From Meiothermus ruber DSM 1279 (GTDB lineage Bacteria > Deinococcota > Deinococci > Deinococcales > Thermaceae), in contig NC_013946.1 in NCBI RefSeq assembly GCF_000024425.1, positions 1,612,001 to 1,676,000 on the forward strand: a DNA stretch of 64,000 bases, read 5' to 3'. This document shows, piece by piece, positions 60,219 through 63,644 of the stretch (its first letter is position 1; each line of letters begins with the position of its first letter). The notes under the pieces were generated by a model. The model made no database searches, had not been told where the DNA came from, and worked only from the letters and a program-made list of their open reading frames with translations. Position numbers and translations under genes: made by a program.

Positions 60219-61217
60219 CTAGATGGCTACTGGCTTTTGCAGCAGCTCTGCAATCTGCACAGCATTCAAAGCCGCTCCCTTGAGCAGTTGGTCTCCCGCC
60301 ACAAAGAAATCCAGCCCGTTATCAAAGGCCAGGCTTTTGCGGATACGCCCCACCTCCACGTTGAACTTGCCGGTCGCGCTCAGGGGCATGGGATAGCGTT
60401 TGGCAGCGGGATCGTCCACCAAATCCACCCCTGGCGCTGCGCTTAGCACCGCTCGAGCCGCCTCCGGACTTACGGGTTTTTCAAACTCCACCGTAACCGC
60501 CTCGGAGTGCACCCGCAGGGTAGGAACCCGTACTGCCGTGCAGGAAACCCGGATCTGCGAGTCCTCCATGATTTTTTGGGTCTCCCACAGCACCTTCATC
60601 TCCTCTTTGGTGTAGCCGTTTTCCTGGAAAGCGTCTATCTGTGGAATTACATTGAAGGGCAGGGGGTGGGCAAAGGTTTTGTGTTCAACCGCACGCCCGG
60701 CCAGGAACTCTTTGGTGCCCTGCAGCAGCTCCTCCATCCCGCTTGCGCCTGCCCCCGAAGCGCTCTGGTAGGTGCTCACAATCACCCTTCGGGCCTTAAA
60801 GGCTTTGTGCAGGGGATGAAGGGCCATCAGCAGGATGGCTGTGGTGCAGTTGGGGTTCGCAATGATGTTCTTATGACCCCGGATGGCGTGCGGGTTAATC
60901 TCCGGCACAATCAGGGGTACGTCCGGCTCATAGCGAAAGGCCGAGGAGTTGTCGATCACCACCGATTGGGTGGCCCATATGGGGGCATACTGCTTGGAGA
61001 TGCTGCTACCTGCACTCGCCAGCACCACGTCCACCGGCAGTGGGGCCTCCGGCAGGGCCTCTACAGCGACTTCCTCTCCCCGAAAAACCATGCTTCGACC
61101 AGCAGAACGCGCCGAGGCGTACAGCCGCAGCTCCGAAACCGGAAAGTCTCGCCGCTCGAGCACGCTCAGCAACTCTTTACCAACCGCCCCGGTCGCCCCT
61201 ACAATCGCGATTTTCAT
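60219..61217 (-). CDS. asd: Aspartate-semialdehyde dehydrogenase
   Basis: A 332-residue enzyme reducing aspartyl phosphate to aspartate semialdehyde, the branch point to lysine/DAP, threonine and methionine. The NADP-binding [14 protein letters not shown] is at about 7-20, catalytic Cys at about 124 in [23 protein letters not shown] follows, and the substrate Arg region is [19 protein letters not shown]. The ATG at 61217 is used rather than a GTG three codons upstream. Upstream on the same strand lie a promoter, a Thr-rich leader ORF and an intrinsic terminator, suggesting attenuation by threonine. Confidence 0.95.
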
Positions 61218-61237
61218 AGCCTTCACCTCTCTTCAAC

Positions 61238-61261
61238 AAAAAACCTGCCAGAACTGGCAGG
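61238..61261 (-). terminator. Intrinsic terminator (attenuator) upstream of asd
   Basis: On the minus strand CCTGCCA-GTTC-TGGCAGG (stem 61255-61261 with 61244-61250; extendable by a G-C pair) followed by T6 at 61243-61238. It lies 20 nt before the asd ATG and after the leader ORF, so it would stop transcription before asd unless disrupted. A second hairpin (61263-61268 with 61283-61288, AGCGGC type, with an inner CTCG/CGAG stem) lies between the leader stop codon and the terminator. Confidence 0.75.
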
Positions 61262-61287
61262 TAGCGGCAACTCGAGCGAGCCGCCGC

Positions 61288-61317
61288 TTAGCTAGTGGTG
61301 GTGGTATACCAAACCAT
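61288..61317 (-). CDS. Threonine-rich leader peptide of asd
   Basis: A nine-codon ORF encoding M-V-W-Y-T-T-T-T-S with codons ACC ACC ACC ACT for the four consecutive Thr, ending in TAA. It starts 9 nt after the TATTGT -10 box, so it may be translated from a leaderless transcript. Four Thr codons in nine, directly before a terminator and asd, match the logic of known amino acid attenuators such as the thr operon leader. Ribosome stalling on scarce Thr-tRNA would be expected to favour read-through. Inference from sequence only. Confidence 0.7.
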   Translation of the reverse strand: MVWYTTTTS

Positions 61318-61326
61318 CTGCGAACA

Positions 61327-61355
61327 ACAATATAAGCAACTCAAGCAAAAGTCAA
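61327..61355 (-). promoter_or_regulatory. Promoter of the asd leader transcript
   Basis: Minus-strand TTGACT (61350-61355), a 17-nt spacer and TATTGT (61327-61332); an overlapping TATATT (61329-61334) gives a 15-nt spacer. This is one of the best -35/-10 pairs in the window. Confidence 0.7.
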
Positions 61356-61397
61356 ACCCAACCAGCCCGCTCCACAACCACAGAAAGGCCTGATTCC

Positions 61398-63644
61398 TCA
61401 GTTGCAGCGATAATCACCAATCCGCGCCTCGGGCACCTGTAGCCATGCCACCTGGGCCGTTGGGGTCTCCGGGGAAGCCAGGCAGCCGGTCACGCGGTTG
61501 ACCGCAATGGTAAGGTAGGCCCGACCGGAGGCCAGCGCTGGGCCGGGGCGGGCGATGTAGGTGGGCTGGGGTGGGACATCCAGCACAGCAGACTGGGCGC
61601 CAGCCACCTGGGTGCGCTGCACCTGGCGCGCAGGAAACAAAGCCGCAACACCACTGGAACTGATATTCCCGGTTAGCAGGTCGAAGGTGGCCGTAGCCAG
61701 CCCAGAGGGTTGTGGAAAATCGCCGGCGGGGCGGCCGCGCAGGGCCTGTTCCACAAAGTCGCGCCAGATGGGCGGGTTCACCACCGAGCTGCTGGGCTCC
61801 ACGCCGCCCATGCGCTGGGGTTTGTGATCATCCCGCCCGACCCAGAGCGTAGCCACCAGACCGCGGGTGGCCCCAGCAAACCATAGGTCGATGGCCTCGT
61901 CGCTGGTTCCAGTTTTGCCGCCCACAATACGCCCAGGGATGCGCGCCGCCGAGGCCAGGCTCGAGCTGAACCCAGGCGGCACGTCGTAGACGTAGCCTTT
62001 GAGCATATCCCAGATCTGATAGGCCACCTGGGGCGACCAGAGCAGAACTTTTTTGGTCTCAGGCTGGTAGATTATGCGGCCGTTGCTGTCCTCAACCCGA
62101 AGCACCAGCCGGGGCTCCACCCAGTAGCCCCCATTGACAAAGCTGGCGTAAGCAGCGGCCAGGCCCATGGGCGTGATCTCGGCGCCACCCCCAATCGCGT
62201 TGGCCAGCACGGCCATATTGCCGGTCAGGCGGAAGCCAGCGGTGCGCAGCTTATCGCCCAGGCGCTGCACCCCGATGGCCTCGGCGGTGCGAATGGCCGG
62301 CAGGTTCAGCGAGCGATCCAGGGCGTAGCGGATGCTGACCGGGCGGTCTAGGTAGCGGCCATCGAAATTTTTAGGCCGCCACACCCCCTGGGGCGTGCGG
62401 TACTCGATGGGTGAGTCGCGCACGGTGGTGGCCTGGGTCCAGCCAGCTTCCAGGGCGACCCCGTAAGTAAAGGGTTTGATGGCCGAGCCGGGACTACGCC
62501 AGGCCTGGGTGGCCCGGTTGAACTCACCCTCGGTGCCTGGCCGGGCCCCCACCATAGCCAGCACCTCGCCCGAGTTGGGCTCGAGGCCCACCAGCGCGAG
62601 CTGGGCCTGATCGGGTAGGCGGCGGCCCGTCACCGCCTTTTCAGCAGCGGTCTGCATCCGGAGATCCAGGGTTGTGATTATGCGCAGGCCACCCTGTTCA
62701 CGCAGCTTGTCTGCACCTATTTTTTCTTTTAGATAGCGCTGTACCTCATATACAAAGTATGGAGCCAGGCGCACATTGCGTTCGGGCACAATTCGCACGC
62801 TGGGGTCAACCAGCTTGGCATTCTTGAGGTTGCCGTTGTCGTCGTATTCCACTTCCCAGCCCTTGGGCACCAGCTTATAACGCCACGCCGCATCGGCCTC
62901 AGACTGGCTAATCCACCCCTCCGAGACCATGTTGTTCAGCAATACCCGCATGCGCCGTCGGGTCGAGCTGAAGTCCAGGTAGCGGGTGTTCGGCGCAGGA
63001 ATCAGCACGGCCAGGTAAGCCCCTTCGGCCAGGTTAAGCTCGGACGGCTCCTTACCAAAATAGGCCTGGGCCGCGGCCCAGATGCCCTGTGCGTTGCCGC
63101 CCCAGGGCACCACGTTCAGGTACATCTCTAAAATTTCCTCTTTGGAGTAGCGCCGCTCAACCTGAATAGCCAGCGGAAATTCCTTCAGTTTGCGCTCGAG
63201 GCCGCTGATACCCCGCCGCTCGAGGGCCAGATCCCTTAGCAGGGTGTTCTTGACCACCTGGGTGGTGATGGTGGAGCCCCCCTGTAGATCACCGCGCAAG
63301 GTGTAGTAAACCCCGCCCAGCAACCGGATGAAGTCGATGCCGTAGTGCCTGAAAAAGCGCTGATCCTCCGAAACCACCACCGCCACGGCCGCTGCGGGGG
63401 ATACCTCGGAAAGCCGCACCAACTGCCGGGCAATAGCCCGCCCATCCTCCACCGAGGCCAGATCGGCAATGGGAATACCATCGCGGGTGTAGAAGGTAGA
63501 GGTGGCCGTGAAGCGCAAATCTTCAAGGGTCTCGAGGCTAGGCAGGTCGCGCAGGAGCAGCCAGGTTACGTACCCTGCGGCTCCCAGTGCGCCCAGAAAC
63601 CCTGCAAGTAGCACCAGCCGCAAAACCTGAAGCAATCTTCGCAC
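61398..63644 (-). CDS. Class A penicillin-binding protein (PBP1A-like)
   Basis: A 748-residue bifunctional peptidoglycan synthase. One N-terminal membrane helix (about 8-30) is followed by the GT51 glycosyltransferase with EDQRFFRHYGIDFIRL, GGSTITTQVVKN and a KEFPLAIQVERRYSKEEILEMYLN segment, then a transpeptidase with the active Ser in SPGSAIKPF, an SxN-type triad and the KTGTSDEAIDLWF box. A short Pro-rich C-terminal region follows. GTG start at 63644 with TAAACT 7 nt upstream. Polymerises and crosslinks glycan at the outer face of the membrane. Confidence 0.93.
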   Translation of the reverse strand: MRRLLQVLRLVLLAGFLGALGAAGYVTWLLLRDLPSLETLEDLRFTATSTFYTRDGIPIADLASVEDGRAIARQLVRLSEVSPAAAVAVVVSEDQRFFRHYGIDFIRLLGGVYYTLRGDLQGGSTITTQVVKNTLLRDLALERRGISGLERKLKEFPLAIQVERRYSKEEILEMYLNVVPWGGNAQGIWAAAQAYFGKEPSELNLAEGAYLAVLIPAPNTRYLDFSSTRRRMRVLLNNMVSEGWISQSEADAAWRYKLVPKGWEVEYDDNGNLKNAKLVDPSVRIVPERNVRLAPYFVYEVQRYLKEKIGADKLREQGGLRIITTLDLRMQTAAEKAVTGRRLPDQAQLALVGLEPNSGEVLAMVGARPGTEGEFNRATQAWRSPGSAIKPFTYGVALEAGWTQATTVRDSPIEYRTPQGVWRPKNFDGRYLDRPVSIRYALDRSLNLPAIRTAEAIGVQRLGDKLRTAGFRLTGNMAVLANAIGGGAEITPMGLAAAYASFVNGGYWVEPRLVLRVEDSNGRIIYQPETKKVLLWSPQVAYQIWDMLKGYVYDVPPGFSSSLASAARIPGRIVGGKTGTSDEAIDLWFAGATRGLVATLWVGRDDHKPQRMGGVEPSSSVVNPPIWRDFVEQALRGRPAGDFPQPSGLATATFDLLTGNISSSGVAALFPARQVQRTQVAGAQSAVLDVPPQPTYIARPGPALASGRAYLTIAVNRVTGCLASPETPTAQVAWLQVPEARIGDYRCN

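Follow-up and report, generated by a model that had tools for sequence, protein, structure and literature searches.

A putative threonine-codon transcription attenuator preceding asd in Meiothermus ruber and related Deinococcota

Results

Organization of the asd leader region

The window is a stretch of 64,000 nucleotides of the Meiothermus ruber DSM 1279 genome (NC_013946.1, positions 1,612,001 to 1,676,000), and all coordinates given without a locus label refer to it. On its minus strand, asd is preceded by a promoter, a nine-codon open reading frame (ORF) that contains four consecutive Thr codons, a hairpin that begins at the stop codon of this ORF (hairpin 2), and an intrinsic terminator (Table 1). 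The initial annotation had listed these elements (promoter, ORF, stop-codon hairpin, GC stem with T6, and asd), and all of them are present on the minus strand.

Table 1. Elements of the asd leader region in the window
Feature	Position	Strand	Remarks
Sigma-70-type promoter, TTGACT-17-TATTGT	61327..61355	-	Promoter scan; comparable -35/-10 pair and same distance to leader start in 27/27 leaders
-35 box, TTGACT	61355-61350	-	17-bp spacer to -10 box
-10 box, TATTGT	61332-61327	-	9 nt before leader start codon
Leader ORF, nine codons, MVWYTTTTS*, probably leaderless	61288..61317	-	ATG GTT TGG TAT ACC ACC ACC ACT AGC TAA
Putative sensing codons, ACC ACC ACC ACT	61294..61305	-	Four Thr codons in a row
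17-mer at leader start, ATGGTTTGGTATACCAC	61301..61317	-	Nucleotide-invariant in 20 genomes of two genera
Hairpin 2, proposed non-overlapping antiterminator	61263..61288	-	11-bp stem; 5' strand starts at last stop-codon base
Intrinsic terminator	61238..61262	-	Stem ACCTGCCA/TGGCAGGT (61262-61243) into T6 (61243-61238); 0 nt after hairpin 2
Likely asd ribosome-binding site	61223..61232	-	Sequence inspection; 3' of terminator and free of sequestration by it
asd, aspartate-semialdehyde dehydrogenase, 332 aa	60219..61217	-	TIGR01296 (405.6 bits) and NF011456 (437 bits), both above cut-off

Upstream, on the same strand, lies a penicillin-binding protein gene (PBP1A) that ends at 61398; scanning found no terminator-like site between this end and the asd promoter. 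Likewise, no promoter-like site was found by the scan on the minus strand between the terminator and asd, so that, as far as such a scan can tell, transcription of asd must cross the terminator. The leader region, in which the attenuator element spans about 80 nt, folds better than 200 of 200 dinucleotide shuffles (z -3.2). An Rfam scan of 60900-61700 returned chance matches only, far below the gathering scores, with no T-box, amino-acid riboswitch or Thr leader family among them, and we found no description of the element in the open-licence literature.

Distribution among relatives

Of 50 Thermaceae genomes in which asd was found, 30 were read upstream of the gene. The complete unit, consisting of the short ORF, the stop-codon hairpin and the terminator, precedes asd at 22 of the 22 loci outside Thermus (genera g1, g2 and g3) and at none of the eight loci of genus g4, which is Thermus by inference. 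Thus the Thr codons and the terminator, whose loss in close relatives the initial annotation had named as a result that would speak against its proposal, are kept throughout the non-Thermus Thermaceae. Sequence upstream of the promoter, in turn, varies among these relatives.

In g1 and g2 the leader peptides read MVWY followed by three to five Thr and at most one further residue. The g3 leader, MSLARTTTT, has wholly different first five codons and retains the Thr run and both hairpins. The unit also occurs in two more families, f2 and f3. In f3, the asd leaders are VSQRFNNTTTI, MQFWNTTTTTK and VNVWYTTTTTI, and every Thermaceae and f3 leader has three to five Thr codons. The exception is the asd leader of an f2 genome (G052, L119:1481-1587), MKLASHICNIMITP, which has the same hairpin pair as in Thermaceae and a single Thr codon. 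Ile, Asn, Met and Thr codons stand there in place of the Thr run, and this leader may sense several amino acids of the aspartate family.

A covariance model built from the unit scores the window's own genome, one of its training sequences, at E = 8.7e-22, and G052, which lies outside the training set, at E = 1.5e-6; these E-values are rough. Note that the class- and phylum-level searches extended to no more than the 111 genomes of the order-level search, with Deinococcaceae proper probably outside. Low-scoring matches in Thermus and in G069 were inspected and rejected as probably fortuitous (one, for instance, is a tRNA beside a terminator). A scanner for the layout alone (a short ORF with a hairpin at its stop codon and a terminator beside it), run on 1.3 Mb of fetched DNA with both strands counted and many loci overlapping, retrieved only asd leaders and one ilvA leader.

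Two irregularities at other asd loci were seen in passing: in L118 (G055), at about 1600-1740, the beginning of asd is repeated in truncated form (MKLAIVGAST*) after the terminator and ahead of the true start, and the asd matches of L051 and L052 (G060 and G059) contain one in-frame TGA, possibly a natural stop near the C-terminus.

The leader ORF

When changes in the first three Thr codons are placed by parsimony on the asd tree of the 22 Thermaceae, 12 are found, and all 12 fall at third positions and are synonymous, a pattern with a chance of roughly 2e-6 under uniform placement. That the Thr codons change only synonymously suggests that the leader ORF is translated. A -35/-10 pair was found before each of the 27 leaders, and in each the start codon lies 6-9 nt past the -10 box. 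Since this spacing leaves no room for a Shine-Dalgarno sequence, translation of the leader ORF is probably leaderless. A precedent is the ilvBNC operon of Corynebacterium glutamicum, whose leader peptide (ilvL) begins 1 nt from the point where transcription starts (PMC11857589). The initial annotation, which had suggested as much, therefore gains support on this point; its remark that such a leader would be mechanistically unusual is overstated in view of the same precedent.

The beginning of the leader is conserved beyond what its coding function would explain. The 17-mer ATGGTTTGGTATACCAC occurs once per genome, before asd only, and its invariant nucleotides include GTT (Val) and TAT (Tyr), whereas in asd of the same genomes a single codon is kept at none of the 21 invariant Val positions and none of the 6 invariant Tyr positions. 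Neither the attenuator model nor the peptide alone accounts for this invariance, which may reflect a 5' hairpin formed with the Thr codons, the needs of leaderless initiation, or an overlapping protein site. A palindrome, TGGTATACCA, lies within the 17-mer (61301-61317). A multi-site operator is ruled out, the 17-mer being unique in each genome.

Hairpin 2 and the terminator

In an alignment of 24 sequences, hairpin 2 has changes on both sides at 7 of its 11 pairs, with 99.2% of the cells paired, and is thus supported by compensatory changes; the terminator is kept as well (97.1% of cells paired). None of 500 shuffles was as good on any of the whole-structure measures. The geometry is constant: in 27 of 27 leaders, hairpin 2 starts between -2 and +1 nt from the end of the stop codon, and the spacer from hairpin 2 to the terminator is 0-3 nt, with no nucleotides in common. 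The fetched DNA contains 64 distinct terminator-like sites. An adjacent upstream hairpin accompanies 22 of them, all of which belong to these leaders, and none of the remaining 42 (0/42). With shuffled upstream sequence, 0.15 adjacent hairpins would be expected.

Ribosome position and the search for an antiterminator

The effect of a translating ribosome was modelled by assuming a 3' edge some 15-16 nt beyond the first base of the P site. Under this assumption, in each of the 27 leaders, hairpin 2 loses 0-1 pairs to a ribosome with the first sensing codon in its A site and 10 or more to one at the stop codon; if the stall is on the last Thr codon, 4-10 of the 10-13 pairs are already blocked. 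The median predicted probability of hairpin 2 is accordingly 0.98-0.99 in the stalled state versus 0.00 at the stop codon. The terminator, by contrast, is predicted by equilibrium folding to form in both states (0.97 versus 0.96), and therefore the switch would rest on a steric or kinetic effect that is beyond the reach of folding programs.

When truncated transcripts of the 27 leaders were folded with the ribosome-covered bases masked, at 37 and at 55 C, no conserved antiterminator overlapping the terminator emerged. In the asd and ilvA leaders the 5' arm of the terminator is occupied to only 0.00-0.45, mostly below 0.2, when the ribosome is stalled, whereas the positive controls from the same phylum, seven leaders of trpE and four of ilvB, reach 0.68-0.99 in the same test. 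The asd/ilvA class apparently works without the textbook antiterminator, hairpin 2 being the only ribosome-controlled element seen in the models. The claim of the initial annotation that the locus has exactly the logic of known leader peptides is not supported in this respect.

Other leaders in the phylum

In an f2 genome (G051, L120:1459-1554), a leader VKIQSSTPQIIIF with three Ile codons, a stop-codon hairpin and an adjacent terminator stands before a gene whose product is, on inspection, recognisably threonine dehydratase (ilvA). No ilvA leaders were found in G050, G052 and G053, in part because the position of the ilvA start there could not be established. The stretches fetched upstream of hom in 13 genomes (about 1.1 kb) contained no convincing Thr leader. 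The asd-type layout was not found before leuA, trpE and ilvB, some of which carry other leaders. In particular, Trp leaders before trpE in Thermus and relatives (L144, L146, L150, L154, L156, L159 and L160; for example, MSSFAARWWPG and MKRICANWWWQLV) have classical overlapping antiterminators, and overlapping antiterminators are also present in the branched-chain leaders before ilvB (L165, L177, L178 and L179; for example, MKNAPIIVVVVALSKGVAA).

Discussion

Proposed mechanism

The region contains a short ORF rich in Thr codons, a terminator before a structural gene and, by modelling, a structure that depends on ribosome position (hairpin 2). An antiterminator sharing bases with the terminator was not found, in a test for which the trp and ilv leaders served as positive controls. 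Conservation, covariation and the synonymous-only Thr changes bear out the central proposal of the initial annotation, and we are highly confident, as far as sequence comparison can tell, that asd is governed by a Thr-codon leader-peptide attenuator with this terminator.

For the working of this attenuator we infer that translation is leaderless, that the ribosome stalls, that hairpin 2 acts as a steric block, and which way the response runs. The transcript would start at the leader ATG or a few nucleotides away, and the ribosome would load directly on its 5' end. When Thr-tRNA is plentiful, the ribosome would reach the stop codon and cover the entire 5' arm of hairpin 2, which could not form; the terminator would then fold freely and transcription would end before asd. 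When Thr-tRNA is short, the ribosome would stall on the first Thr codons and leave hairpin 2 intact. An increase of expression on starvation requires that hairpin 2 work against the terminator, and because the two share no bases, we propose a steric block: a stable hairpin that abuts the base of the terminator stem would need to enter the same RNA exit channel of RNA polymerase in which the terminator closes, and could thus hinder closure of the terminator base, which would permit readthrough into asd.

As a full explanation, this ribosome-mediated attenuator, in which hairpin 2 blocks the adjacent terminator, seems to us reasonably probable; for the steric step taken by itself, namely the action of the stop-codon hairpin on the terminator by adjacency, we consider the chances even. 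Only tentatively, and with somewhat more doubt than belief, do we suggest that these leaders form a distinct attenuator class of the Deinococcota, characterized by leaderless mini-leaders, a stop-codon-anchored hairpin whose position next to the terminator, and not competition for base pairs, prevents termination, and a specificity that lies in the codons only (Thr for asd, Ile for ilvA).

Alternative explanations

A Thr-codon attenuator might also operate with hairpin 2 promoting termination, as a pause hairpin or coaxial helper, so that a ribosome lingering over the Thr codons close to the stop would cause antitermination. Support for such a role comes from contiguous hairpin clusters, which are reported to terminate as effectively as one strong hairpin (PMC8355165), a role contrary to that proposed here for hairpin 2, and from the partial masking of hairpin 2 by a ribosome on the last Thr codon. 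However, a ribosome at the stop codon masks more of it than a Thr-stalled one, so that, barring very rapid release, the sign of the response would be wrong; moreover, in every leader hairpin 2 stays virtually whole when the stall is at the first Thr codon, and the other 42 terminator-like sites of the fetched DNA do without an adjacent upstream hairpin. We regard this arrangement as unlikely. A classical attenuator, with the 5' end GGUUUGGU pairing with the 5' arm of the terminator (ACCUGCC) as antiterminator, appears improbable. This pairing does occur when truncated transcripts of L011, L014, L015 and L017 are folded unmasked to minimum energy, and across two genera the 5' segment does not vary by a single nucleotide, but the segment lies within the Thr-stalled ribosome and so would pair when Thr is plentiful, again with the wrong sign. 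In addition, its ribosome-free occupancy is just 0.01-0.39 in most leaders, and both the third genus and G057 have another sequence in its place while keeping the remainder of the system.

The GntR-type-like palindrome over the transcription start could be the real control site, with the hairpins secondary, as the invariance of ATGGTTTGGTATACCAC and the visible symmetry would allow; against this, the 17-mer is confined to a single site, and the symmetry of the palindrome is lost in L059, while g3 and G057 lack the palindrome altogether and yet retain the Thr codons and both hairpins. We hold this to be very improbable, although a protein operator could coexist with attenuation. The hairpins might, finally, merely end the upstream PBP1A gene, with a Thr-rich ORF there by chance and asd expressed by leaky readthrough. 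The gene does run in the same direction and lacks another terminator-like site before the asd promoter. This reading is nevertheless extremely improbable and already contradicted by the conservation pattern: a promoter that all relatives share stands between the PBP1A gene and the leader, the sequence 5' of this promoter differs among them, the Thr codons are kept synonymously, and the layout recurs in an Ile-codon version before ilvA.

Physiological significance

None of the leader-bearing genomes tested has dapB, save for one partial match below the cut-off in G003, whereas 11 of 14 control genomes have it. In these genomes, asd therefore probably serves homoserine, Thr, Met and Ile only, and with aspartate semialdehyde going to Thr, Met and Ile, asd is a sensible target for control by Thr. 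Lysine synthesis via alpha-aminoadipate (AAA) and ornithine in the wall have been described for T. thermophilus and D. radiodurans (PMC1963480). Genus g4 (Thermus) is dapB-negative as well, yet lacks the leader, so that the absence of dapB is a permissive rather than a sufficient condition.

According to a survey of 2010, leader-peptide systems were known only in Proteobacteria and Actinobacteria, to which that survey added Firmicutes (PMC2965389). A Thr-sensing asd attenuator would thus be an addition to a phylum in which leader-peptide attenuation has hardly been described, and would fit the physiology: where the diaminopimelate branch is missing, asd, an early gene of the Thr pathway, probably feeds Thr, Met and Ile only and so can carry the control. 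If the steric model is true, a stop-codon hairpin beside a terminator suffices, which is far simpler than the textbook switch of three or four segments.

Comparison with known systems

The asd leader resembles that of the E. coli thrABC operon (thrL) in having Thr codons in a leader peptide and a terminator before a gene of the Thr pathway. The E. coli leader, however, controls thrABC, is longer, contains both Thr and Ile codons, has a Shine-Dalgarno start and uses an overlapping antiterminator. Within its own phylum, the asd leader has counterparts in the trpE and ilvB leaders of Thermus and relatives, which are likewise leader-peptide attenuators; these differ in their base-paired antiterminator, which the asd and ilvA leaders lack. 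The closest described case is the ilvBNC attenuator of C. glutamicum (PMC11857589), with which the asd leader shares regulatory codons, a terminator hairpin adjoining an antiterminator hairpin (a proposed one in asd), and a short distance between codons and hairpins. The leader peptide of C. glutamicum lies at the very 5' end of its transcript, as is predicted for that of asd. In C. glutamicum, however, the hairpins compete for a common GCC trinucleotide and a third hairpin acts as an anti-antiterminator, whereas no conserved shared bases were found in the asd leader. Unlike that system, the asd leader has a hairpin 2 that starts at the stop codon, and it couples Thr codons to asd.
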